From contig JANSWU010000003.1 of assembly GCA_024743315.1 (NCBI GenBank), positions 62,001-126,000 on the forward strand: a stretch of 64,000 nucleotides of DNA. Direction: 5' to 3'. Numbering within the stretch: position 1 is the stretch's first letter; each line of letters opens with the position of its first letter. The DNA is from Hyphomonadaceae bacterium (GTDB lineage: Bacteria; Pseudomonadota; Alphaproteobacteria; Caulobacterales; Hyphomonadaceae). The position numbers were made by a program, and so were the translations under genes. Below are positions 2,590 through 36,781 of the stretch, piece by piece. Under the pieces are notes generated by a model. It was given only the letters and a program-made list of their open reading frames with translations, had not been told where the DNA came from and did not search any database.

Positions 2590-3183
2590 TTATTCAGTGC
2601 TCGCGCCGCGCGTGACCGCGAAGAATGGCCCTAATTGAATGGTTTGTTTCTCGAACGCTAAATCGAACCCCATATCTGACTCAGAGACTTTGAAATCGCT
2701 CTCTGCCAGACCCGAGACCTTGTACATTTTCCAGTCTTCACCAGGCATAATTTCCTGATTGATTACTGTGTCATAAGGCTCAACATTCCGCCCCAGCACA
2801 ACGCCGATTCTACCCGCATCTTTGCCTCTCGGGATCTTTTCGGCACGGGCCCAGAAATAGATCTCAATCTGCTCGCCTTTTGAAACATCTTGCTCATACG
2901 GAGCTCGCATGCGGATATTCCAAGGTTCTTTGATGTTTCGGCGTCTGATTTGGAATTGGATCGCCTGTCCGCCCGGAACACCTTCCGCTTCTACAATAGA
3001 TACGCGCTTATTTCCGCCTTCTGGATTCCATTTGATCGCCAGAGGGTTATGCAGCAGGTCCCCAGGCACACTGACATGGCTGACGGGTTCCACTTCAAAA
3101 TTTGGATCTGAGAACGCGGTTGGCGCGAATGCCAGAGCAGCCGCAAGCGTGCTCATCGCAATTACGGATTTTACAGTTTTCAT
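2590..3183 (-). CDS. Secreted carbohydrate-binding-like beta-sandwich protein, first gene of the xyl operon
   Basis: A 197-residue exported protein with a Sec signal peptide (MKTVKSVIAMSTLAAALAFA, cleavage near AFS). The mature part has the pattern of galactose-binding-like CBM4/9 modules: KGEQIEIYFWARAEK, then GRIGVVLGRN, PYDTVINQ, W-K-M-Y-KVSG and a terminal IQLGPFFAV strand. No catalytic domain is visible. The start was placed at the ATG at 3183 because GGGAGGAG lies 7 nt upstream; an open frame continues 120 bp further but has no ribosome site and would bury the signal peptide. It heads the unit CBM-xylB-xylA, with a candidate LacI-type operator about 95 bp upstream. I infer a periplasmic or surface xylan/xylo-oligosaccharide-binding role; the family assignment rests on fold pattern only. 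Confidence 0.7.
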   Translation of the reverse strand: MKTVKSVIAMSTLAAALAFAPTAFSDPNFEVEPVSHVSVPGDLLHNPLAIKWNPEGGNKRVSIVEAEGVPGGQAIQFQIRRRNIKEPWNIRMRAPYEQDVSKGEQIEIYFWARAEKIPRGKDAGRIGVVLGRNVEPYDTVINQEIMPGEDWKMYKVSGLAESDFKVSESDMGFDLAFEKQTIQLGPFFAVTRGASTE

Positions 3184-3278
3184 CGGTTTCTCCTCCCTAT
3201 TTCGTCGGGCCCAGTTCCCGGACATTTTTTTCGCGATGAGTATCACTTTGGCGTTATTCGTTGAACTCTCACGGATAA

Positions 3279-3292
3279 TGTTAGCGCTACCA
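3279..3292. promoter_or_regulatory. Candidate XylR-type (LacI family) operator upstream of the xyl operon
   Basis: TGTTAGCGCTACCA on the plus strand is an imperfect palindrome centred on TAGCGCTA, 96 bp upstream of the start of the CBM-xylB-xylA unit. From memory, the same core occurs in the xylose-inducible promoter of Caulobacter crescentus, where the LacI-family repressor XylR binds. On the minus strand, TTGCTT and AGCTAT spaced by 17 bp lie just upstream and could be the -35 and -10, placing the operator around the transcription start. No xylR gene is inside the window. Confidence 0.6.
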
Positions 3293-3375
3293 TAGCTTGT
3301 CATAAATGGCCATTAAGCAATTGAAGTCGGATTGCGATTTTTGACAGTTTTAAAGCAAGAGATCCCAATGATCGC

Positions 3376-4101
3376 CTATTGAAGTTTGACTTCGCCGCTC
3401 AGCGCCATGCGCAAATGGTCACGGCGTTCGACAATTTCTTGTTTCGCTTCACAATCCCGGCACCTTTTCAAAATGCCTTCGATTTTCTTGAGTTCAGATT
3501 CTGCGGTTTTTGAGTCGCCGTTCAGCAATTTGATCAAGGCGATCTTATAATGGGCGTCGTACAGGATTTTACTGTCGCTGGTTGCGCGCTCGAAATTCCG
3601 CAGGGCTTCGTTCGTTTTACCCAATTGGATTTGAGACAATCCTGCAAAATAAAGCTGCCGCGCACGCTTCTCACATGTGCGGTCATATGTGCTTTCTATA
3701 TTCCGCGCTGCAACGTCATCGAAAGCACCCACACCGGTCGGCGTTTGCTGACCGCTACCAGCGCTGGCACCGCGCGAGGACGCCCCTGAGTCGACATTAT
3801 TGCTGGCCGTCGCGAAGAGATCGGCCCGAACCGAATTGCTCTGTGCCGTTCGAATTGAGCTCGTAAGGTTACGTTCGCGGCGCAAGGCACACATGGCGTT
3901 ATCGAGAAACTCGACCTCAGCGGTCTCAAAATCGCCAGCCCGGAATGCCGCCATGGCAGCATCGTTCTGGACTCCCAAGACTTCTACCGTATCGAGCACA
4001 CGCTCGCCGGAGGCTTCAGCTTCCTGCTCCTGCGCTTGCGCTAGACCCATACTGCAAGCCAGCAATATGGTTGAGAAAAGTATTCTATTCGCGTTTTTCA
4101 T
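3376..4101 (-). CDS. Secreted TPR-like protein, last gene of the halogenase operon
   Basis: A 241-residue exported protein with a signal peptide (MKNANRILFSTILLACSMGLAQAQ). The mature protein begins with an acidic stretch, then VLDTVEVLGVQNDAAMAAFRAGDFETAEVEFL, which resembles the first TPR helix pair. A Ser/Gly/Asn-rich linker follows, then two further TPR-like helix pairs (ARQLYFAGLSQIQLGKTNEALRNFERA and YDAHYKIALIKLLNGDSKTAESELKKIE). A C-terminal CRDC pair is present. The start at 4101 has AAAGG upstream; an open frame extends to 4374 but overlaps the preceding halogenase and lacks a signal. It lies 46 bp behind the last halogenase. Small TPR proteins are often found beside TBDR/halogenase genes in Caulobacterales; a scaffold role in the periplasm is inference. 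Confidence 0.7.
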   Translation of the reverse strand: MKNANRILFSTILLACSMGLAQAQEQEAEASGERVLDTVEVLGVQNDAAMAAFRAGDFETAEVEFLDNAMCALRRERNLTSSIRTAQSNSVRADLFATASNNVDSGASSRGASAGSGQQTPTGVGAFDDVAARNIESTYDRTCEKRARQLYFAGLSQIQLGKTNEALRNFERATSDSKILYDAHYKIALIKLLNGDSKTAESELKKIEGILKRCRDCEAKQEIVERRDHLRMALSGEVKLQ

Positions 4102-4147
4102 TGTAACGGCCTTTGACTGACAGATCCCCACTTCTCCCAAGGAGAAC

Positions 4148-5656
4148 TTACGCGCTTTGCACCAATCTGTGAAGGTAGGTGGCGTGATCTTCGAACGCAT
4201 CGAGACACTTATACATCGCGCGCCGAATCTCCGACATCCGCCGATCCAACATTTCGTCAGACATATTATCAATGACTGGGTGATATCGCTTTGGTCGTAA
4301 ATTCTGGCCTTCAAAGACGGCAAACCAGCTGTTTTCGCTGAACAGTTCATTATTCTCTCTGTAGAGGCGACCATTTTCCATATAAATGTCTATGCGTTGT
4401 CTGAGCGACTCTGGCAGCTCCATCGTACGAACATAATTCCAAAACGGGCTGTCAGTTCGTTGCGTGGCGCAATAGTGCAAAATTAGGAAATCTCGAACCT
4501 GCTCATACTCCAATAGCGTCTTTTGATTGTAGAAATCGATGTCGTATTGATTGAAATTCTTGTCCGGGAAATTGGTCATTAGCCGTGCCACTGCGGTCTG
4601 AATGAGATGGATGGAGGTCGACTCCAATGGCTCTAGGAACCCGCTAGCCAGCCCCAGGGACACCACGTTCTTGTTCCAAGCCTTCTTCCGCACGCCGGTT
4701 GTGAAGCGCAGGAATTTTGGCTCCTTCAACGGCGCGCCATCCAGCCCTGATTTGAGTTGGGCATAGGCCTCATCATCGCTGATATATTCGCTGCAATAAA
4801 CGTGACCATTGCCGATCCGGTTCTGCAGCGGGATCCGCCATTGCCATCCCGCTTTATGTGCAGTCGCCCGCGTATAAGGGATTGGCGGGCCGTCGGATTC
4901 ACAGCCCTGCGCAACCGCGCGGTTGACCGGCAGATAATGCGACCAGTCATCATATCCAGTCTTGAGCGTTTGCTCGATTAACAGCCCCCGGAACCCCGAG
5001 CAATCAATGAACAGGTCGCCAGACACGGCCTGACCAGACTCTAACACGACGCTGTCTATAAAGCCGTCTTCTGGTCGTTGTTTGACCTCGACCACCTTGC
5101 CTTCGATCCGCTCAACACCACGCGATTCGGCAACACCGCGCATATATTTGGCATACAAGGCAGCATCAAACTGAAACGCATACTCAATCGAACTCAGAGG
5201 CGACCCGCGCATTTCGGGTTTTGGATGCGCAAATTTACTGAGCTTAGATCCCAGACAATGCAGGTTGTAATCATCTGCAGGTGGGGCACCTTCCTTGCGA
5301 GCATGGCGCAACCAGAAATGATGGAAATGTACGCCTTCCATGTTCACGCCATAGGGGCTGAAGGAATGGAAATAACGGTCGCCAATTTGGCCCCAATTGA
5401 CGAATTCAATGCCCACTTTGAATGTCGCATTCGTCCGCTTCAGGAAGTCGTTCTCATTCAGACCGAGCAACTGATTAAAGTACCGGATATGCGGAATCGT
5501 CGCCTCGCCGACCCCGACGGTCCCGATCTGCTCGGATTCGATGAGGCGAATTTTCACGGACGGATTCCGCAACAGGATTGAAATCGCGGACGCGGCCATC
5601 CAACCGGCCGTTCCGCCTCCGACAATCACGATATCTTTGATGTTCTGGTCGTTCAT
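4148..5656 (-). CDS. PF04820 flavin-dependent halogenase, intact active site (copy 1)
   Basis: A 502-residue FADH2-dependent halogenase of the tryptophan-halogenase family. In characterised enzymes flavin hydroperoxide reacts with halide to give HOX, which is passed to an active-site lysine. The GGGTAGW dinucleotide motif is at residues 13-19, the catalytic lysine is K80 in TFKVGIEFVNW, GWQWRIP is at 270-276, and the Glu-Ser pair is E345-S346 in LEPLESTS. No signal peptide is seen, so it should be cytoplasmic. It is the fourth gene of a five-gene operon with 13 bp to the upstream halogenase. Relatives beside TBDRs in Xanthomonas and Brevundimonas are reported to brominate indole; the native substrate here is unknown. 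Confidence 0.9.
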   Translation of the reverse strand: MNDQNIKDIVIVGGGTAGWMAASAISILLRNPSVKIRLIESEQIGTVGVGEATIPHIRYFNQLLGLNENDFLKRTNATFKVGIEFVNWGQIGDRYFHSFSPYGVNMEGVHFHHFWLRHARKEGAPPADDYNLHCLGSKLSKFAHPKPEMRGSPLSSIEYAFQFDAALYAKYMRGVAESRGVERIEGKVVEVKQRPEDGFIDSVVLESGQAVSGDLFIDCSGFRGLLIEQTLKTGYDDWSHYLPVNRAVAQGCESDGPPIPYTRATAHKAGWQWRIPLQNRIGNGHVYCSEYISDDEAYAQLKSGLDGAPLKEPKFLRFTTGVRKKAWNKNVVSLGLASGFLEPLESTSIHLIQTAVARLMTNFPDKNFNQYDIDFYNQKTLLEYEQVRDFLILHYCATQRTDSPFWNYVRTMELPESLRQRIDIYMENGRLYRENNELFSENSWFAVFEGQNLRPKRYHPVIDNMSDEMLDRRMSEIRRAMYKCLDAFEDHATYLHRLVQSA

Positions 5657-5669
5657 ATCTTTACATCCA

Positions 5670-7187
5670 TCAACTCAACATGGGCTCGGCGGCCCACGCA
5701 TATTTTCTGAGAAAGGCTTCATGCGTCGGCATTTTCGCCGTTGCGGTGTCCATTGCCCTTTGCATAGAATTCAAGCTATTCGTTATCTGCGCTTCATCGA
5801 TCGTATTGACGATCGGATCGACCGAGCGCGGCACGATATTCTGGCCCAACATCACAGCCACCCAACTTGGCTTCGAAAACAATTCGTCTTCATACCGAAA
5901 GAACCGACCCGCCTCTTCGAATAGTTCAATCTTTTCTGTGAGGCTGTCTGGAACATCCATGTTCCGGCATTGAATCCAGAATTCGGAGTCATCTCGTTGC
6001 GTGGCCTTGTAGTGCAGGATGATGAAGTCCCGCACCTGTTCAAACTTCTTCTCTAACAGCCGGTTATATTCCCGGGTCACGGTCGCCGGCATGTCGGCTG
6101 TCGGGAACAAGGCAATGAGTTTGCTGATGCCTTCCTGGATCAGAAACAGAGACGTCGATTCCAGTGGCTCAAGAAAGCCGCTGGAGAGGCCAATCCCGAT
6201 ACAATTCTTTTCCCAGAATTTGGCGCGATGACCAGTCCGGAACTTGATCTTGCGCGGTGTGCCAAGCGCCGCGCCATCCAGGTCTGCGAGCAGGCTCTCA
6301 ATCGCCTCATCATCGCGCATGAACGCACTGGAATATATATGCCCATTGCCGGTGCGATGCTGAGTTGGGATACGCCATTGCCAACCGGCTGTCTTGGCGG
6401 TCGAGACCGTATAGGCGCGCAATGGCCCAGATCGCTCGCACGCAACCGTCTGCGCTGTGTCGCAAGGCAACCAGTGCGACCAATCTTTAAAATCGACGCC
6501 CAGCGCCTGCCCCAACAACAAGGCCCGGAATCCGGTGCAATCGAAGAACAGGTCCCCCGGTATGCACTCGCCACTTTCCAGTGTCACGGACTTAATGAAA
6601 CCTGTCTCTGGCACTTGCTCTACGCTGGTGACCTTGCCTTCAATCCGGCGTACGCCGCGCGCTTCGGCATAAGACCGCAAATACTTGGCATAGGCGGTTG
6701 CATCGAAATGATATGCATAGCGGATTTGCGAAAGAACAGAGCGCGGATCATTCTCAGGCAATGTGAATTTATGGTGCTTGGCTGCGACCGCGCTGAGACT
6801 GAAATTTTGAATTTCACTCTCTGGATGACGGGCTTTGTACCGCATCCAGAACTGGTGAAAATCAACCCCGTTCATATCGACGCCGTGCTGACCGAACGGG
6901 TGGAGATAAGATTCGCCGATCCGACCCCAATTGACGAATTCTATGCCGAGCTTGAACGTGCCATTCGTCGCTTTCAAAAACTCCTGCTCGGGGATGCCCA
7001 GCATGGCGTTAAAGTTGATCACATCCGGGATCGTCGCTTCACCAACACCAATCGTCCCGATCTGCTCCGACTCGATCAAGGAGATTTGAACAGCGTGCGG
7101 CGGCAATAGGCTGGAGAGCGCCGCTGCCGTCATCCAGCCTGCGGACCCGCCGCCAACAATCGTGATCTGTTTAATCGCTTCAGGCAT
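5670..7187 (-). CDS. PF04820 flavin-dependent halogenase, intact active site (copy 2)
   Basis: A 505-residue tryptophan-halogenase-family protein. GGGSAGW is at 12-18, the catalytic lysine is K79 in TFKLGIEFVNW, GWQWRIP is at 268-274, and E343-S344 lie in LEPLESTS, so all residues known to matter are kept. I chose the ATG at 7187, which has GAGAA upstream; a TTG 15 bp earlier is also in frame. The start overlaps the 3' end of the degenerate paralogue (stop at 7180), suggesting translational coupling. It differs clearly from its neighbours in the substrate-side region (for example DTAQTVACERSGPLRAYT where copy 1 has NRAVAQGCESDGPPIPYT), so it may act on a different aromatic substrate. Confidence 0.9.
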   Translation of the reverse strand: MPEAIKQITIVGGGSAGWMTAAALSSLLPPHAVQISLIESEQIGTIGVGEATIPDVINFNAMLGIPEQEFLKATNGTFKLGIEFVNWGRIGESYLHPFGQHGVDMNGVDFHQFWMRYKARHPESEIQNFSLSAVAAKHHKFTLPENDPRSVLSQIRYAYHFDATAYAKYLRSYAEARGVRRIEGKVTSVEQVPETGFIKSVTLESGECIPGDLFFDCTGFRALLLGQALGVDFKDWSHWLPCDTAQTVACERSGPLRAYTVSTAKTAGWQWRIPTQHRTGNGHIYSSAFMRDDEAIESLLADLDGAALGTPRKIKFRTGHRAKFWEKNCIGIGLSSGFLEPLESTSLFLIQEGISKLIALFPTADMPATVTREYNRLLEKKFEQVRDFIILHYKATQRDDSEFWIQCRNMDVPDSLTEKIELFEEAGRFFRYEDELFSKPSWVAVMLGQNIVPRSVDPIVNTIDEAQITNSLNSMQRAMDTATAKMPTHEAFLRKYAWAAEPMLS

Positions 7188-8610
7188 AATTTCGTTTCTC
7201 AAAATACTTTTTCATGTTGGCGACATAAAGATGATGCGGCGGCATACGCGGCACCATCTGCTCAATCGCTTGTCGCATTCGCGCTAGTTCAGTGCGCGCT
7301 TGCGCCTCAGACAATTGTTGCGCTTGTAAATCATAATGCCTCGGCCGACGCCCCAGTCCAAAATGGAGGATGGTCCAGTCTTCGTCATTGAACGGCTCAA
7401 GATCGAAGCGTACTAAAACCCCGCGATTCTCAAATTGTGCCACTTTACGCTTGAGCTTGGGGGATTGCGCGGTAGTCGCAGCCAGCCTCCAGAAGTCGCT
7501 TCGAGGCTCCTGTTCAGAACAGTAAAACGCGCCCTGAAACAAAGCTGCGTGATCAACATCATCTTTGAAACGGCGATTGAACTCTCGCCGCTCCGCGTTC
7601 GAATCGTCAGAAAGCGGGATAAGCTCCAGCAAACGCTCTATATCACGTTGCAGCAGAATCATCGGAGCCGGCGTGAGCGGCTCAAGCGCACACGCCGCTT
7701 GACCGATCGCCACACAATTTCCGATCCACGCGACATCAACAGATCCGAGCGCAAACTCTATGCCTGGCATATTTCGAGGTGCATCAATGGACTGAACCCG
7801 CACGGTATCAATCGCTTGCTGCAAATGAGTTTTAGAGGTCCAGCCGAAAGGGTCCGCTTCGACAATGCGGTGCGGCCATCCGAGCTCTGGCGCCGCGGCG
7901 CGCGTCGAAGATGAAAAGACGGATCTGTTCTCAACAAATTTGCCGCCAAACTCACTCAAGGCCCGTCTCTCTGGACCTGTGCAATCCACAATCAGATCAG
8001 TTTTTAGCACCTCGCCGGACTCAAGCCGCACAGCTCCATGCCCGAAATCGTCAAAATCAATGCGGGCGAGCGGGGTGCCGTAAGTTGTAATTGAACTTTT
8101 GGCGATTTCTGCCTCAAGCAAACGCGTCCAATCCGCGACCGAAAACTGATATCCATACTCGGCGCGCGATAGCGGCACATTTGGATCCTCAGGCGGGTGC
8201 GCAAATCTTCCCTTCAACGCGGCTTGTGCAGACACTAGAACGGGTTCCAATGGCAGCTCTGCCCGCGTCAGATGATGCACCAATGGGACGCCCGCGATAT
8301 TTTGAAAGGGTTGCGCATAGCCCTGCATCCAAGACCGTCCGCCGAGCCAATTTTGATACCACGTTCCGTAGCAAAACGAGGTCCCGGACCGGGTGAAGAG
8401 TGCCGGCTCATCCAGCCCCAATTTTCTAAGAAAGTCATAGGCTGAAGGGGCTGTTACACTCCCGTATAGAATATCTGCCTCAGTCGAGTTGCCAGAGCGC
8501 ACGAAATGTATCGCATAATTTGACGGCAATTCCCGGAGCAAACTCATCGCCGTCATAGCGGCCGCGAAGCCGTCGCCACAAACAACAATATCAAATCGTT
8601 CAGTGCGCAT
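7180..8610 (-). CDS. Catalytically degenerate tryptophan-halogenase paralogue
   Basis: A 476-residue member of the same fold, aligned with its neighbours over the full length but without their active site. The flavin motif GGGTAG is GDGFAA (residues 12-17). The catalytic lysine position (K80 in copy 1) is C80 in SFCYGTWYQNW. GWQWRIP has become FGWTSKT (255-261). The catalytic Glu-Ser is T313-P314 in LEPLTPAP. The adjacent VGEATIP motif is also changed to YGSVTAP. The frame is open, with a normal start (8610) and 13-22 bp couplings to both neighbours, so it is a maintained gene rather than a pseudogene. It may be a partner subunit, a substrate-binding protein or a flavoenzyme with another chemistry; halogenation by the known mechanism is unlikely. 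Confidence 0.85.
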   Translation of the reverse strand: MRTERFDIVVCGDGFAAAMTAMSLLRELPSNYAIHFVRSGNSTEADILYGSVTAPSAYDFLRKLGLDEPALFTRSGTSFCYGTWYQNWLGGRSWMQGYAQPFQNIAGVPLVHHLTRAELPLEPVLVSAQAALKGRFAHPPEDPNVPLSRAEYGYQFSVADWTRLLEAEIAKSSITTYGTPLARIDFDDFGHGAVRLESGEVLKTDLIVDCTGPERRALSEFGGKFVENRSVFSSSTRAAAPELGWPHRIVEADPFGWTSKTHLQQAIDTVRVQSIDAPRNMPGIEFALGSVDVAWIGNCVAIGQAACALEPLTPAPMILLQRDIERLLELIPLSDDSNAERREFNRRFKDDVDHAALFQGAFYCSEQEPRSDFWRLAATTAQSPKLKRKVAQFENRGVLVRFDLEPFNDEDWTILHFGLGRRPRHYDLQAQQLSEAQARTELARMRQAIEQMVPRMPPHHLYVANMKKYFEKRNYA

Positions 8611-8623
8611 GGGGCTCTACCAT

Positions 8624-10156
8624 TTAAGACGCTGCGCCCGCGACGAGCTGCGGCGATTGTGACGCTGCGCCATAACGCGCAAGAAAATCGCCTTGTCGCG
8701 GCGTTTGCTCAACTGCATGCATTGTCCTGGATTTTATATCCTCTAGCACCCGCTCCAATTCTGATTGGTCCGGGCGATCGGCACGAGGATCATGTCCGGT
8801 CGGGATAAGATTTTGCCCGAGCATGACCGCCACCCAGCTCGGCGGTAGAAACACGCCAAACTCATATTTCAAAACATAGCCCCGCGACATCCAAGCCTGT
8901 GTCTTTTCTTCCAGACTGTCGGGCAGTTCCATGCTGCGGAAGTATCGCCACATCTCACTGTCATCGCGTTGTGTGGCAACATAGTGGAGCAAAAGAAAGT
9001 CGCGCACGCGCTCGAAATCCAGCCCCATACGATCATTATACTCCTCCACGTCCAGTGGATCGACATGCTCAATCGGAAATAGCTCAATCAGGGCGGTGAT
9101 TCCCTCTTGAATGAGGTGGATTGAGGTTGATTCCAGCGGCTCCAGGAAGCCCCCGGATAGACCGATACTGACAACATTCTTATTCCAGAATTTCCGTCGG
9201 CGCCCGGTTTTGAAGAAGAGCTGCTTCGGCTCTGCCAAAGCCGGTCCCTCCAGCGTGCTCATAAGCTGATGCGTGGCTTCATCATCGGAGATGAATTCAC
9301 TCCAATAGACGTGCCCATTGCCGGTTCGATGCTGTAGCGGAATGCGCCATTGCCAACCTGCTTGGCGCGCCGTGGCACGTGTATAAGGAACCATTTCTCC
9401 ACGCGCTTCGCACGGCACCGCGACGGCACGATTACAAGGCAACCAATGGCTCCAATCGTCATATCCGGTTTCTAGTGCCTGCTCGATCAGAATGCCGCGG
9501 AATCCGGAGCAATCGATGAAAAGATCCGCTTCAATTTCGGCGCCACTTTCAAGCTTTATCTTGTCCACGTTGCCGGTCTCTGGATTCAACTCGGTGTCGG
9601 TCACGCGCCCTTCCGTGCGCTTGACGCCATTACCCTCGCAATACGTGCGCAAAAATTTCGCATAGAGACTTGAATCGAACTGATAAGCGTAGCCGAAATT
9701 AGAACCGATCTGATTCAGGTCTTCACCGGGCATCTGAAAACGCCCCTGTTCCGCAGCGATGATCGGATAAGAATAGTCGTCAAGGCGAGACACGAGCCCT
9801 TGCTGATTCAAGCGCAACCAAAACTGATGGAAATCCAAACCATGCAGCGGAATCCCGTAATCCCCAAACGGGTGGATATAGTGATCCCCCAGCTTGCCCC
9901 AGTCGCAAAACTCGATTCCCAACTTGAACGTTGCTTCGGTGGCTTTCATGAAAGAACGTTCGTCGATTCCAAGGGCCTGATTAAAAAAACGAATGTGTGG
10001 CAAAGTTGCCTCACCGACACCAATCGTACCGATTTGATCGGATTCCACGAGTTCAATATTCAAGCCTAATGCGCTGAATTTATTAGAAAGTGCCGCTGCG
10101 GTCATCCAACCGGCAGTGCCTCCTCCCAGAACACATATTTTGGATATGCGGCTCAC
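8624..10156 (-). CDS. PF04820 flavin-dependent halogenase, intact active site (copy 3), first gene of operon
   Basis: A 510-residue halogenase. GGGTAGW is at 11-17, catalytic lysine K78 in TFKLGIEFCDW, GWQWRIP at 267-273 and E342-S343 in LEPLESTS. The start is a GTG at 10156 preceded by GAGGGAGG, a strong ribosome site seen before several sugar-locus genes here. It opens the operon copy 3 - degenerate paralogue - copy 2 - copy 1 - TPR protein and is divergent from the TBDR at 10470. Its HWLPCNRAVAVPCE segment is almost the same as that of the halogenase at 33783, making these two the closest pair by eye. Confidence 0.9.
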   Translation of the reverse strand: MSRISKICVLGGGTAGWMTAAALSNKFSALGLNIELVESDQIGTIGVGEATLPHIRFFNQALGIDERSFMKATEATFKLGIEFCDWGKLGDHYIHPFGDYGIPLHGLDFHQFWLRLNQQGLVSRLDDYSYPIIAAEQGRFQMPGEDLNQIGSNFGYAYQFDSSLYAKFLRTYCEGNGVKRTEGRVTDTELNPETGNVDKIKLESGAEIEADLFIDCSGFRGILIEQALETGYDDWSHWLPCNRAVAVPCEARGEMVPYTRATARQAGWQWRIPLQHRTGNGHVYWSEFISDDEATHQLMSTLEGPALAEPKQLFFKTGRRRKFWNKNVVSIGLSGGFLEPLESTSIHLIQEGITALIELFPIEHVDPLDVEEYNDRMGLDFERVRDFLLLHYVATQRDDSEMWRYFRSMELPDSLEEKTQAWMSRGYVLKYEFGVFLPPSWVAVMLGQNLIPTGHDPRADRPDQSELERVLEDIKSRTMHAVEQTPRQGDFLARYGAASQSPQLVAGAAS

Positions 10157-10469: not shown

Positions 10470-13400
10470 GTGAATTCGAAGTCGAGACTTGGTCGTAAAG
10501 GACCAAACAAATTTATGCTTCTTGGGACTACCGCCATGGTTGCCGCATTCGGCCTACCAGGCGCGATGGCTCAAGACGACGCAGCCGACGAAACGCCGGT
10601 TGAAAATGTTAGCGATAACACAACTGAAGACGAGGCCCGTCAGGACGTGGTCGTTGTTCAAGGGGTCCGCGGCGCTCTGCAAACCGCCCGGAACCTAAAA
10701 CGCGATTCCGACACGTTCGTTGATTCGATCACTGCCTCTGACGTTTCTCAGTTGCCAGATCTTTCTGTGGCTGAAGCGCTCGCGCGTGTTCCTGGGGTTG
10801 TAACCCAGCGTTTTGAACTTGGCGGCAGCGATGGCGACTTCCCATCCCCTGAGGGCTCGGGCAACATCGTTCGTGGCCTGCAATATGTCCGTTCTGAGTT
10901 TAACGGTCGTGACGCCTTTTCTGCGAATGGCGGACGCGCTCTGGAATGGGCCAGTATTCCACCAGATCTGATTGGCGCGGTTGACGTTTTCAAAAACCAA
11001 ACCGCCGATATGATTGAAGGTGGCATTGCTGGTACGGTGAACCTTCGTACTCTTGAACCATTTGATCGTGACGGGCTTGTTGCCGTAGCGGTCGCAGACG
11101 GTACGTTTACGGACCAACGTGAAGAGTTCTCTCCCGGCTACAGTGTCATTCTCGGCAATCGTTGGGATACAGACTCTGGTGAGTTCGGTCTCTTGGGCTC
11201 TTTCTCAACCTCCGAGCTACAGTCCTCTGTACAAGGCTTCCAGTATGGTCAGTTAATGGCCATTCCGCATCCGGATATTGACGGTCAAACGATCGCGCTT
11301 CCTGGCGGCTGGCAGGCGCGCGACTCGCGCATCGATCGCGAGAGAGACAGCTACTATCTCGCTGGACAGTGGCGTTCGCCAGATGGCGATATGGAGCTTA
11401 CCGTCAAAGCCACGCGTGTTGAGAACGACATCCTGACTCAGGAAAACACGCTTGAATTCTTTACCGATGCGGAATCCTGGGCGAACTGGACCATCCTCGG
11501 TGGCCCTGCGACCCGCAGCATCGTGCCGTTCACATCAGCCGGCATCCCGCGCTGTAACGGCAACGGAGAAGCGGCCAATGGCGGCGACGGCATCTGTGAG
11601 CAATTGTTCGCGATTGATGGCGGTCTTATGGAATCAGGTCTTGTCTCGAACAACCTTCGTGACTGGCTGGGCCAGACCGGCAACTTGCAGACCCCGCTTC
11701 AGTCGCTTGCGATCAATCAGCGAAATGAATCAATCACACAAGATTTCAGCGCAAATCTGAAATGGCGCGTGAACGATCAGTGGTTCATCGAACTTGATGG
11801 TCAATACACAGACGCGGAAGCCACACTGGAGCGCCTTTGGGCCGGTGGTAACCACTTTGCCGATTACGCATTCAATTTCTCAGATCCAGAAGATCCCCGG
11901 ATCAATCTGTTCATCTCTGACGAAGTTCGTCTCGCGGATTGGGGCGGCACCTTCCGCGGCGCTGATCCAGGCGTATTCGGAAACCTGAGCGATCCTCGCT
12001 TCAACTTCCCGCTCTACGCAGCTGACCAGTATGAAGACAATACGGGTGACCTCGTCGCATTCCGTGGCGATGCTACTTATGAGTTCGAGAATGACGGTTG
12101 GTTTGACTCGGTCAAATTCGGGGCGCGTTACTCGGAGCGCGAACAGCGCAACCGCAGTGCAGGCCTCAACTGGGGCGGCATCGCGCCACCATGGGCCGGC
12201 GGCTACCTGCCATATGCAAACCTTGAGAACCAAGACTTCTACGAAGAATTCGATTACAGCAACTTCCAGGGCGGCGGCGTCTTTGTGGGTGACATCACAT
12301 CTGTGATCTTCCCACGCCAAGCCCTGATGTCGGACATTGATGCCTTTGTTGACGGTCTCTCTAACGAGCCGCTCTTGGGCTCTGGCATCAATGCGGATGG
12401 CAATTTGCAAATTGGTGACTGGGTACCGTTGCGCCAGAACGGCGTGATTGACTATGCCGGCCGCGGGATTGACGGCAACGTCAAGGAAGAAACGATCAAC
12501 CTCTATGGTATGATCAATTTCGGCCAGGAGTTCGACAACGGTCAGGCCCTTAGCGGTAACGTTGGTCTACGCTATGTCCGTACGGAGAATACCGGCGGCG
12601 GCGTCCTAGGATATGCGGAGTTCGCTCCGGATGATCCGACGGACAACACAGAGCCTCGTGACTTCTTGCCGCAAATGGCAGCCTTGTTCGACACGCCAAA
12701 CGCGCCAAATGCGGTGGATAGCAGCTATGAATATGTCCTGCCATCGCTCAACCTGAAGTATGAGCTCAATGATGAGATGATCATCAGATTTGCGGCGAGC
12801 CAGGCGATTACGCGTCCTGACATCGCAGCGATCAACGCTTCACAGACCGCCGTTGGCGCCCTCGGCTTCGTTGTCGACAACACGGTGGCACCTCCTGTGA
12901 TCCAGGGTGTTGTGCCTGATCAGATCAATCTGTTCGGCGGAAACCCATTGCTGGAGCCAATCGAAGCGACCAATTTCGATCTATCCTACGAATGGTACTT
13001 CGGCGATGAAGGTCAGTTCTCTGTGTCTGCCTTCTATAAAGACCTGAAGAACATCATTGTGTACGGAACTGAAACGATCGACGTTGTAACCTTGGATGGG
13101 TTCGAAGTTCCGATTGTTGCTAACAGCAATCTCAACTTGAATGATGGTACCGTTGAAGGTGTCGAATTTGCTTACCAGCAATTCTTCACAGACCTTCCAG
13201 GACTGTTTGGAAACCTCGGTGTTCAGGCCAACCTGACGCTGATCAGTTCCGAAGCAACGCCACTGACCCCGGTCTTTGATACGGACGGTGACGGTGTTGA
13301 AGGCTTCTTGACGGTTTACCGTTGGGGGATCGATGAGCTGCTTGGTTTGTCGGACACGTCCTACAACATTATCGGTATCTATCAGGATGATCGTTTCGAA

Positions 13401-13673
13401 GCACGTCTCGCCTATAACTGGCGGTCTGAGTATTTCAGCTCTTATCGTGACTTCGTAACCGGTAACCCAATCCTTCAGGATGATATTGGGTTCCTCGACG
13501 CATCATTCCGCTTCGATCTGACTGACAATGTCGAGCTACGTTTCCAGGCAGCGAACCTGCTGGACACACAAGCCACGGCACGTCAGCAAGTTGATCAAGC
13601 CGGGCAGACATTTGCCCGCTCGGTCTTCGACAATGATCGTCGCTATGAGATTGGTATCCGTTACCAGTTCTAA
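10470..13673 (+). CDS. TonB-dependent receptor, probable (xylo-)oligosaccharide uptake
   Basis: A 1067-residue outer-membrane active transporter energised by TonB-ExbBD. It has an N-terminal signal (FMLLGTTAMVAAFGLPGAMA) and a TonB-box-like segment DVVVVQGVRG. The plug domain begins at SITASDVSQLPDLSVAEALARVPG and includes GIAGTVNLRT. The 22-strand barrel ends in the typical aromatic C-terminus (GIRYQF). The start is a GTG at 10470 with AGGGAGGT about 7 nt upstream. It is divergent from the halogenase operon and near xylAB, so a xylose-polymer ligand is plausible, but specificity cannot be read from the sequence. A hairpin terminator follows the stop. Confidence 0.9.
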   Translation: MNSKSRLGRKGPNKFMLLGTTAMVAAFGLPGAMAQDDAADETPVENVSDNTTEDEARQDVVVVQGVRGALQTARNLKRDSDTFVDSITASDVSQLPDLSVAEALARVPGVVTQRFELGGSDGDFPSPEGSGNIVRGLQYVRSEFNGRDAFSANGGRALEWASIPPDLIGAVDVFKNQTADMIEGGIAGTVNLRTLEPFDRDGLVAVAVADGTFTDQREEFSPGYSVILGNRWDTDSGEFGLLGSFSTSELQSSVQGFQYGQLMAIPHPDIDGQTIALPGGWQARDSRIDRERDSYYLAGQWRSPDGDMELTVKATRVENDILTQENTLEFFTDAESWANWTILGGPATRSIVPFTSAGIPRCNGNGEAANGGDGICEQLFAIDGGLMESGLVSNNLRDWLGQTGNLQTPLQSLAINQRNESITQDFSANLKWRVNDQWFIELDGQYTDAEATLERLWAGGNHFADYAFNFSDPEDPRINLFISDEVRLADWGGTFRGADPGVFGNLSDPRFNFPLYAADQYEDNTGDLVAFRGDATYEFENDGWFDSVKFGARYSEREQRNRSAGLNWGGIAPPWAGGYLPYANLENQDFYEEFDYSNFQGGGVFVGDITSVIFPRQALMSDIDAFVDGLSNEPLLGSGINADGNLQIGDWVPLRQNGVIDYAGRGIDGNVKEETINLYGMINFGQEFDNGQALSGNVGLRYVRTENTGGGVLGYAEFAPDDPTDNTEPRDFLPQMAALFDTPNAPNAVDSSYEYVLPSLNLKYELNDEMIIRFAASQAITRPDIAAINASQTAVGALGFVVDNTVAPPVIQGVVPDQINLFGGNPLLEPIEATNFDLSYEWYFGDEGQFSVSAFYKDLKNIIVYGTETIDVVTLDGFEVPIVANSNLNLNDGTVEGVEFAYQQFFTDLPGLFGNLGVQANLTLISSEATPLTPVFDTDGDGVEGFLTVYRWGIDELLGLSDTSYNIIGIYQDDRFEARLAYNWRSEYFSSYRDFVTGNPILQDDIGFLDASFRFDLTDNVELRFQAANLLDTQATARQQVDQAGQTFARSVFDNDRRYEIGIRYQF

Positions 13674-33782: not shown

Positions 33783-35297
33783 ATGAGCGACCCGAATTCA
33801 GCCATTGAAAAAATTGTGATTGTCGGCGGCGGCTCGGCCGGATGGATGACCGCCGCCGCGCTTGTGAACGACCTTGGCGACAGCTGTGAAATCACGCTGA
33901 TCGAGTCTGAAGCCATCGGCACGGTGGGGGTCGGCGAGGCAACCATCCCTCCTATCCGTTATTTCAATCAACGCCTGGGCATTGATGAAGCAACTTTTGT
34001 CCGAGAGACGAACGGTTCTTTCAAGCTTGGCATTGAGTTCATCAACTGGTCACGAAAAGGGCACGCCTATTTCCACCCATTTGGACACTATGGCGCTGAA
34101 TTCGACAGTGTCCCGTTCTATCAATATTGGATGCGCGAGCATTTGAACGGGGATCCCACACCAATTGATGAATATTCGATGGGATGGGTCGCCTCCAAAG
34201 CCGGAAAATTTGTCCACCCATCTCGTGATCCGCGAAACGTCCAATCGCGCTTTGATTATGCTTATCATTTCGATGCGACGCTCTACGCTGGCTATTTGCG
34301 CAAATATGCCGAAACGCGCAGGGTCAAGCGCGTTGAGGGCCGCGTCACAGATGCCTCAATCGATGCAGAGACTGGATTTCTTTCAACCGTCACTTTGGAG
34401 GATGGCCGCACTTTTGCAGCAGACCTGTTCATTGATTGCTCTGGCTTCTTCGGATTGTTGATCGAGCAGACGCTGCAGACTGGTTATGAGGATTGGTCAC
34501 ACTGGCTGCCCTGCAATCGCGCCGTCGCTGTGCCATGCGAAAAGACGTCCGAGATTTTGCCATACACCAAATCGACCGCTAAAGATGCTGGTTGGCAGTG
34601 GCGGATCCCGCTGCAACACCGCACTGGCAATGGCTATGTCTATTGCAGCGAGTATCTCGACGAGGAAGCGGCTGAGGCCGAACTCTTAAGCTCACTCGAC
34701 GGTGCGCCAACGGCAGACCCGAAACATTTGCGCTTCGTCACAGGTCGACGGAACAAATTCTGGAACAAAAATTGTGTGGCCATCGGGCTGTCAGCGGGGT
34801 TCATGGAACCCCTGGAATCGACTAGTCTGCACCTCATCCAGTATGGCATCATGCGCTTGCTCGCCCTGTTTCCGGACCGCAATATGTCGCCGCTTTTGGC
34901 CGACGAATACAATGCCCTGACAATTGCAGAATATGAGCGCATTCGCGACTTTCTGATCTTGCACTATACGGCCACCCAGCGGGAGGACACCGCGTTCTGG
35001 CGCTATTGCAAAAACATGCCGATTCCTGAGCGCTTGGCGTACAAGATCGAGCACTTCAAAACGCATGGCATGGTGATTTCAGACGAGCGGGAACTGTTTC
35101 ACAATCCGAGCTGGATCGCCGTCTATCTCGGCCAGGATATTTTTCCACAACGCGCGCCTGCGATGGCGCGGCACCGCAGTCACACCCCGGTTCAGGAACG
35201 GATGCAGCAGATCCGGTCCGCCATGTCAGAAGCCGTCGCCGCCATGCCATCGCACGAGGCGTTCATCGATCGCTATTGCAAATCGGCTTTGCAGTGA
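33783..35297 (+). CDS. PF04820 flavin-dependent halogenase, intact active site (copy 4)
   Basis: A 504-residue halogenase. GGGSAGW at 15-21, catalytic K81 in SFKLGIEFINW, GWQWRIP at 270-276 and E345-S346 in MEPLESTS are all present. It is a single plus-strand gene divergent from nuoA and convergent with the halogenase at 35273, with which it overlaps by 25 bp at the 3' ends. The ribosome site is weak. It is closest by eye to copy 3 (8624-10156), sharing HWLPCNRAVAVPCE and most of the C-terminal half, so it may stem from duplication of that gene. Confidence 0.9.
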   Translation: MSDPNSAIEKIVIVGGGSAGWMTAAALVNDLGDSCEITLIESEAIGTVGVGEATIPPIRYFNQRLGIDEATFVRETNGSFKLGIEFINWSRKGHAYFHPFGHYGAEFDSVPFYQYWMREHLNGDPTPIDEYSMGWVASKAGKFVHPSRDPRNVQSRFDYAYHFDATLYAGYLRKYAETRRVKRVEGRVTDASIDAETGFLSTVTLEDGRTFAADLFIDCSGFFGLLIEQTLQTGYEDWSHWLPCNRAVAVPCEKTSEILPYTKSTAKDAGWQWRIPLQHRTGNGYVYCSEYLDEEAAEAELLSSLDGAPTADPKHLRFVTGRRNKFWNKNCVAIGLSAGFMEPLESTSLHLIQYGIMRLLALFPDRNMSPLLADEYNALTIAEYERIRDFLILHYTATQREDTAFWRYCKNMPIPERLAYKIEHFKTHGMVISDERELFHNPSWIAVYLGQDIFPQRAPAMARHRSHTPVQERMQQIRSAMSEAVAAMPSHEAFIDRYCKSALQ

Positions 35298-36781
35298 GCA
35301 TTGATGAAATCCTGATGTGTCGGCAGATCCTTGGTTGCGCGTTGGATCAGTCTTTGAACATCATTTAGAAAACCGGATAGCTGCTCGGAACTTAGCCGAT
35401 TGGCCATTGCGTGGAAGTTTTTCGGCATCAGCCCCTGCCCGACCATGACCTGAACCCAGCTCGATTCCCGGAACAGATCATCCGCGTCCTTATAGAGCAG
35501 GCCATTGCCTTCAAACAACGCCATTTTCTCGGTCAGCGATTCCGGCACGTCCATGTGTTTGCAATACCGCCAGAATTCTGAATCTTCACGATCCGTCCGG
35601 TGGTAATGCAGGATCAGGAAATCCCGGATCAGCTCATACTCGTGCCCGACCTGGCGATTATATTCGATCTCATTCGAGGCATCGAACGCCTTGTCCGGAA
35701 ACAGCTCGATCAGTTTCGACACATTCGATTGAATCAAATGAATCGAGGTCGATTCCAATGGCTCAAGAAATCCACTCGCCAGCCCTAAAGAGACACAATT
35801 CTTATGCCAGAATTTGTCGCGTCGCCCGGTGGTAAACCGTAAGCGTTTCGGGTCGGAAATCGGCGCGCCATCAAGATTAGCGAGCAGCGTTTCTGTCACG
35901 GCTTCTTCAGTCGTGAACTCCTCGCAAAAAACATGACCATTGCCGGTCCGGTGTTGCAATGGGATCCGCCACTGCCATCCCGCATCATGCGCCGTGGCCT
36001 TGGTATAAGGCAGTAAAGGCGCTGTGCTCTCACACCCAACCGCCACCGCCCCATTACAGGGCAACCATTTCGACCAGTCCTGATAGCCGACGCCAAGTGC
36101 GTCACCGATCAGCAATCCACGAAATCCTGAGCAATCGACAAACAGGTCACCGCTAATGGTTTCGCCGCGGTCGAGCGTGACTGAGTCGATGAACCCTGTT
36201 TCAGCCGCGAGCGCGACATCGACAATCTTGCCCTCGACCCGGGTGACGCCGCTCGCCTCGGCGAGTTTGCGCAAATAGCGCGCATACAGTCCCGCGTCGA
36301 AGTGAAAGGCATAAGCCAGGCCCGTCATGGACGTGTTGCCGACCCGATCCAGGCGCCCGAATTTATGATTGTAGGCAGCCTTATGGTGTAAGGAATAATC
36401 CCAGAGACCGTTCGGGTTTCCTTCGGCGCGGCTACGCAGCCAATATTGGTGGAAATGCAAGCTCGCCAGATTAATCCCGGCATCGCCGAAAGTGTGCAAA
36501 TATGACTCACCGAGATGGCCCCAATTATTGAATTCGATGCCGAGCTTGAACGTGCCATTTGTCTCGCGAACGAATTCGTTTTCGTCGAGCCCGAGCACGG
36601 CATTGAGCCGGCGAATCTGTGGAATGGTTGCTTCACCAACGCCAACTGTGCCAATCGCGTCCGATTCGATCAGGGTGATCTTGACGCCTGCACCGAGCAT
36701 TTTCGACATCGCAGCAGCCGCGATCCAGCCTGCTGTTCCGCCACCGACAATCACTATGTTTTCAATGTGTTGGCTTTCCAT
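35273..36781 (-). CDS. PF04820 flavin-dependent halogenase, intact active site (copy 5)
   Basis: A 502-residue halogenase with GGGTAGW at 12-18, catalytic K79 in TFKLGIEFNNW, GWQWRIP at 268-274 and E343-S344 in LEPLESTS. It follows the MalA-like TBDR (stop at 36893) on the same strand, separated by 111 bp containing a hairpin, so its expression may be lower than that of the receptor. Its 3' end overlaps the opposing halogenase; both end in the pattern CK..LQ-stop. Confidence 0.9.
   Translation of the reverse strand: MESQHIENIVIVGGGTAGWIAAAAMSKMLGAGVKITLIESDAIGTVGVGEATIPQIRRLNAVLGLDENEFVRETNGTFKLGIEFNNWGHLGESYLHTFGDAGINLASLHFHQYWLRSRAEGNPNGLWDYSLHHKAAYNHKFGRLDRVGNTSMTGLAYAFHFDAGLYARYLRKLAEASGVTRVEGKIVDVALAAETGFIDSVTLDRGETISGDLFVDCSGFRGLLIGDALGVGYQDWSKWLPCNGAVAVGCESTAPLLPYTKATAHDAGWQWRIPLQHRTGNGHVFCEEFTTEEAVTETLLANLDGAPISDPKRLRFTTGRRDKFWHKNCVSLGLASGFLEPLESTSIHLIQSNVSKLIELFPDKAFDASNEIEYNRQVGHEYELIRDFLILHYHRTDREDSEFWRYCKHMDVPESLTEKMALFEGNGLLYKDADDLFRESSWVQVMVGQGLMPKNFHAMANRLSSEQLSGFLNDVQRLIQRATKDLPTHQDFINAHCKADLQ

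Follow-up and report, generated by a model that had tools for sequence, protein, structure and literature searches.

A disarmed halogenase homologue, conserved beside intact copies in TonB receptor-linked operons of Proteobacteria, as a probable pseudoenzyme subunit

In the window, the whole 64,000-nucleotide stretch of Hyphomonadaceae DNA analysed here, four PF04820 genes stand in a row on the minus strand in the order H1, slot 2, H3 and H4. H1 occupies slot 1 (8624..10156, minus strand) and encodes a halogenase of 510 aa that is intact as judged by Pfam and alignments; its clade has a support of 95-96 in the trees. Slot 2 (7180..8610, minus strand), the subject of this study, is an intact open reading frame with an ATG start that encodes a disarmed PF04820 protein of 476 aa. 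H3 (slot 3; 5670..7187, minus strand) and H4 (slot 4; 4148..5656, minus strand) are again intact halogenases by Pfam match and alignment. The initial annotation had described the slot-2 frame as intact and closely coupled on both sides, and so it is: it lies 13 nt from the H1 stop, and its own stop overlaps the ATG of H3 by 8 nt. A divergent gene (10470..13673, plus strand) encodes a TonB-dependent receptor of the TIGR01782 type, recognized by domain matches. H4 is followed by genes for two proteins with weak matches to TPR and carbohydrate-binding families, respectively, and then by xylulokinase. The CBM-like and TPR-like proteins (window positions 2590-3303 and 3376-4374) trail the operon in several genera, the TPR-like protein also in some Alteromonadales, and both may be part of an uptake system.

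A search of the source genome found six PF04820 genes, all inside the window. The remaining two, H5/H6, are intact halogenase genes (33783-35297, plus strand, and 35273-36781, minus strand) that lie end to end with a 25-nt overlap. They adjoin a second TonB receptor and LacI, alpha-amylase, GH15 and MFS genes (alpha-glucan genes), and no disarmed copy was found beside them.

The slot-2 protein matches PF04820 above the cut-off with 184.5 bits over residues 7-433, compared with 616-644 bits for the five intact copies. A structure model predicts a full flavin-dependent halogenase (FDH) fold, in keeping with the end-to-end alignment to the neighbours first reported; the refinement is that identity to the intact neighbours reaches only 23-25%. 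All six PF04820 proteins were aligned with PrnA, as had been proposed. The reference was Burkholderia PrnA (538 aa, gene adjoining prnB; K79, E346 and S347 checked), and all five intact copies retain the Lys and the Glu-Ser pair, neither of which is kept in slot 2. Here Cys80 (codon TGC, 8371..8373, minus strand) stands at the catalytic Lys79 and Thr313-Pro314 (codons ACG CCG, 7669..7674, minus strand) at Glu346-Ser347, exactly the replacements first described, while A315 falls at T348 and P316 at G349. The flavin motif reads GDGFAA (residues 12-17; 8560..8577, minus strand) instead of GxGxxG, again as annotated. The reported loss of GWxWxIP stands in part. Larger alignments place GWTSKTH (residues 256-262; 7825..7845, minus strand) at this site, with the GW at 256-257, and the small PrnA alignment places GWPHRIV (residues 244-250) there; W-x-IP is lost in both, but GW itself is retained in 95% of 44 relatives, in which the second Trp is never found. 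The window protein thus lacks the equivalents of Lys79, Glu346-Ser347 and GWxWxIP that mark functional halogenases, and differs in K79, E346, S347 and W-x-IP from the tryptophan halogenases of the PrnA/RebH type. Among related PF04820 halogenases such as BrvH (6frl) and Xcc4156 (6y1w), BrvH has both Lys and Glu, of which the window protein has neither.

Close relatives of the slot-2 protein occur in six other genomes of a family sample (101 genomes, the window's own included; 349-492 bits, next score 152) and in 29 others of an order sample (398 genomes; 183-511 bits, next score 159). In a class sample (385 genomes) clade-level scores were reached only by the window's genome (671 bits) and G416 (579), with the next at 297; the same two genomes alone reached that level in a phylum sample (398 genomes), the next score being 307 bits (G1113). 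The slot-2 and H1 counts in the order sample come from the best four and best three candidates per genome, respectively. Scanning the contigs of named genomes with the single window protein as query gave no match; scanning with alignment A1, which comprises 29 of 31 slot-2 sequences (two truncated ones were omitted), gave 43 loci out of 57 stretches via one conserved motif. Since 20 of the 30 order-sample loci duplicate named-genome loci, the total with G416 is 54 distinct relatives, with 33-49% identity, from Hyphomonas/Maricaulis-type bacteria, Asticcacaulis, sphingomonads and Alteromonadales. The named loci include Maricaulis, Oceanicaulis, Henriciella, Hyphomonas, Hellea, Litorimonas, Robiginitomaculum, Asticcacaulis, Parvularcula, Sphingomonas and Qipengyuania, and the gammaproteobacterial ones Marisediminitalea, Aestuariibacter, Paraglaciecola, Alteromonas and a Colwelliaceae bin. 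The row of halogenases beside a nutrient-uptake receptor is found in many marine and freshwater bacteria, and the relatives in the order sample and the named genomes rule out a private oddity of one genome.

Across these 54 relatives the Lys site holds Ser in 48, Cys in four and Ala in two, and the Glu site holds Thr in 49 and Ser in four, one protein ending before it. No relative keeps the Lys (0/54) or the Glu (0/53), none has a VGEAT motif, and the old Glu-Ser site mostly reads T-P-A-P. The initial annotation had proposed to check whether C80, T313 and P314 are conserved among orthologues: Cys is not the usual state at its site, whereas the loss of Lys is, and Thr-Pro prevails at the other. 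The intact copies of the named loci keep the Lys in H1 (42/42), H3 (42/42) and H4 (40/40), 124 of 124 in total, and the Glu-Ser in 123 of 124 (H1 42/42, H3 41/42 with one gap, H4 40/40). Judging from these sequences, the loss of Lys and Glu-Ser is old and not private. Of 111 columns that are near-invariant in the 124 intact copies, the disarmed clade keeps 33 and loses 52; outside these 111, 22 columns are near-invariant in the disarmed clade with residues absent from the intact copies. By alignment, the clade-special residues at the old active site include D46, Y49, W94, Q96, T313, A315 and P316, and the 22 together could mean a new pocket. At the flavin site, the first Gly of GxGxxG is kept in 100%, the second in 88% and the third in 35% of 44 relatives. 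The acid after strand 2 is present (Glu or Asp) in just 13 of 43 disarmed proteins, against Glu in 122 of 124 intact ones, and GxG is replaced by GNT or GNS in five of the eight members from Gammaproteobacteria. Because most members of the close clade retain GxGxx[A/G] and the whole length, flavin binding is possible.

The position of the gene is as constant as its losses. H1 lies directly upstream of the disarmed gene in all 52 testable loci (the contig ends in two of the 54), and an intact copy lies downstream in 52 of 52, with two contig ends again: H3 in 51 and an H4-like copy in one (L134). The disarmed gene is thus accompanied by intact copies wherever there is sequence on the side concerned, a point that the initial annotation had proposed to check. 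A related TonB receptor occurs within the examined stretch in 49 of 54 loci. In two Hellea loci (L146, L147) H4 lies across the receptor, while H1, slot 2 and H3 remain together; H4 was looked for and not found in the Parvularcula (L145) and Alteromonas 5E99-2 (L131) loci. In the order sample, the genomes with H1 orthologues above 700 bits, a line drawn where the scores drop from 720 to 665 bits, together with one that has a truncated H1 (G083), are exactly the 30 of 398 genomes with the disarmed gene, the window's own included. The recurrent genes flanking 45 loci, clustered and typed by Pfam on one member per cluster, are GH3 family (14), LacI regulators (9) and MFS transporters (7), with GH16 (4) and GH17, GH31 and SSF (3 each) rarer. 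They suggest glycan uptake, and no evident halogenase substrate was seen among the flanking genes of these 45 loci.

A more distant series of the operon comprises ten loci from the protein search and 20 chosen via more distant H1. They show the same layout or part of it. In 29 of the 30, H1 is followed by a degenerate gene; the remaining locus (L171) has an H1-like gene and no slot 2. The Lys is kept in seven of 29 distant slot-2 proteins (L095, L098, L158, L166, L172, L173 and, at a gapped place, L043) and the Glu in three (L097, L157, L176); the two residues never occur together in any of the 29, and neither Glu-Ser nor VGEAT is found in them, L174 being gapped at the Glu. Distant slot-2 proteins are often without the flavin motif and some are without the beta domain, yet they are still in position. 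In L043 and L045, from the window's genus, slot 2 is about 300 aa long and lacks the beta domain with GWxWxIP, with the C-terminal helices retained; shortened frames were noted at L043:10074-11234, L045:8687-9676 and L097:7575-8948. L158 and L163 have no halogenase genes besides H1 and slot 2 within the 16 kb examined, and in L159-L161 a further intact copy lies across the receptor. L170 (G265) likewise has only H1 and slot 2 in the 16-17 kb examined; its slot 2 and receptor appear split into several frames, which may be decay or an assembly error. A Niveispirillum plasmid (Rhodospirillales) carries the receptor and H1 - slot 2 - H3 - H4 beside GH43 genes. Its slot-2 protein (L177:8986-10419; S83/G319) has neither Lys nor Glu-Ser, yet is annotated 'tryptophan 7-halogenase', a mislabelling that we flag here.

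In a tree rooted with PrnA and three other halogenases, 35 slot-2 rows form one clade (support 99), as do H1 (96) and H4 (99). This tree, in which the close clade is represented by ten rows, gave long-branch warnings for several rows. A smaller rooted tree holds 21 slot-2 rows, without the long-branched L044, L099, L159-L161, L163, L168 and L170 and without the near-copies L098, L166 and L173; the 35-row tree added the left-out distant rows plus L157, L176 and L097. Distant slot-2 frames below 440 aa (L043, L045, L169, L174, L175) are in neither rooted tree, and H3 is not one clade in either, two changes being needed. An unrooted tree of 186 rows groups H1 of both series together (96) and places all 44 slot-2 rows outside the clade of intact copies.

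The disarmed gene is under constraint, weaker than that on its neighbours. In 15 close pairs its dN/dS is 0.12-0.26, compared with 0.02-0.23 for the intact genes, and it exceeds the neighbours' value in every pair where both are computable; these tests used stop-to-stop frames, in which short non-coding leaders may raise dN. Distant slot-2 pairs gave 0.18-0.40, the value of about 0.40 for L043/L045 being obtained at high divergence, and H1 was saturated in the tests for L118/L119 and L043/L045. In the 35 of 44 loci with all five genes present, the disarmed gene evolves faster than H1, H3 and H4 (slope about 1.6-1.8). Even so, 29 slot-2 proteins from two classes share 35 invariant columns. The initial annotation had named orthologues that keep Lys and Glu, random substitutions or frameshifts, and dN/dS near 1 as signs against its reading; in the close clade we found universal loss, patterned substitutions in open frames, and dN/dS far lower. 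Partial correlations with slot 2 in a mirror-tree search for its partner, over the same 35 loci, were 0.32 for H1, 0.38 for H3, 0.20 for H4 and -0.18 for the receptor; H1 was not singled out, H3 being as high.

What such a protein does can be read in several ways. That it is a decaying duplicate is scarcely credible: its faster evolution and raised dN/dS are what decay would bring, yet the low absolute ratios, the open frames and the columns held invariant over two classes speak against a pseudogene, strongly so for the close clade. Nor do we give much credence to a slot 2 that still halogenates with other residues replacing Lys and Glu. The same fold and operon, and the distant proteins that keep one of the two residues, could be cited for it; against it, both residues are never present in one slot-2 protein, and Glu-Ser and VGEAT are absent from all of them. 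The prolines at 314 and 316 also remove backbone NH groups at the place where PrnA binds halide. In BrvH the exchange K83A abolishes activity, according to the sections available of PMC5945002.

The main rival, unlikely in our estimate and still the strongest of these alternatives, is that slot 2 is a flavoenzyme with different chemistry; it might, for instance, hydroxylate or oxidize the same substrate as the halogenases via a C4a-hydroperoxide without halide, acting before or after them. The full fold predicted by the model, the retained first two glycines of the flavin motif, and the patterned replacements with 22 clade-special residues all fit such an enzyme. The rarity of the acid after strand 2, the GNT/GNS variants, and the distant proteins that keep the position without flavin motif or beta domain do not. 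QhpG, LodB and GoxB are distant flavoprotein relatives with other chemistry. The window protein scores 18.9 bits with the NCBIfam model of GoxB, far under the equivalog cut-off of 400, and has no LodB or QhpG match at E 0.001, and a GoxB/LodB-type maturase was rejected. Less probable again is a stand-alone binding protein, such as a sensor or carrier of substrate, FADH2 or an imported ligand, without stable contact to H1. The clade-specific conserved residues would suit it, but slot 2 adjoins H1 in 52 of 52 close loci and in 29 of 30 distant ones, and the genes are closely spaced or overlap wherever their starts are annotated or clear, an arrangement more usual for subunits.

We consider it probable that slot 2 is an ancient pseudoenzyme subunit that belongs to a multi-gene halogenase unit and most likely pairs with H1. 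The first reading had offered a pseudoenzyme partner or a flavoprotein with a new reaction; the pair is supported, and of the two the partner agrees better with the gene order and with the shortened slot-2 relatives. On sequence grounds slot 2 appears to be a pseudoenzyme, its catalytic residues lost clade-wide under purifying selection. A binding role is preferred to a flavoenzyme because the FAD-site residues are eroded and slot-2 proteins of about 300 aa do without the beta domain. H1 is named as partner because the dead homologue always follows one live copy, and because L158 and L163, and the broken-looking L170, have H1 and slot 2 alone; gene order and these few loci carry the identification. 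Against a partner role stand L171, which has no slot 2, the H5/H6 pair, which has no pseudo-copy, and the mirror-tree result.

Known systems offer parallels. In type II polyketide synthases, a dead homologue (CLF) is the obligate partner of KS in one cluster (PMC13311259), and slot 2 resembles it in that it strictly co-occurs with an active homologue and adjoins it; KS-CLF has another fold and a proven complex. Among published proposals, Ams8-Ams9 from the armeniaspirol cluster comes nearest: in the available portions of PMC13311259, a halogenase homologue without the Lys (N90) is suggested to serve an intact one as an auxiliary partner, and its deletion is cited as abolishing production. That case concerns one cluster, is compared with PltA rather than BrvH and, in the same portions, has a predicted complex only, whereas slot 2 is a clade over two classes with a fixed gene order. 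Our search of the open-licence literature, at the level of titles and abstract starts, found no description of such an operon or of disarmed PF04820 proteins at TonB receptors, PMC13311259 being nearest. BrvH keeps Lys and Glu, brominates indole, elutes as a dimer and has an open substrate site, as stated in the accessible text of PMC5945002; Xcc4156 has an open site too, and the accessible text of PMC7336383 states that neither BrvH nor the Xcc enzymes had a known native substrate.

The conserved unit consists of the TonB receptor and H1 - pseudo-halogenase - H3 - H4, with slot 2 inherited together with H1. Its halogenases may function as dimers, like BrvH, and the pseudo-halogenase would replace one protomer or dock on a dimer, most likely that of H1, where its role could be to mould the open substrate site or to hold a large substrate. 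The halogenating centres would come from H1, perhaps also from H3 and H4, following the KS-CLF logic of an obligate dead homologue, and the substrate is perhaps tied to nutrient uptake by the receptor.

Halogenases of the BrvH/Xcc type are of interest to biocatalysis, and no native substrate is known for them (PMC5945002, PMC7336383, as far as the consulted parts of these papers go). A disarmed homologue inherited with halogenases over two bacterial classes implies that these enzymes may naturally work as a complex. As a more speculative extension, which we advance tentatively, the TonB-linked halogenases of Proteobacteria could form a heteromeric machine with an obligate dead slot-2 subunit and modify a large substrate linked to the uptake of nutrients at the receptor. 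If true, this would account for the lack of known native substrates for single enzymes of this type.
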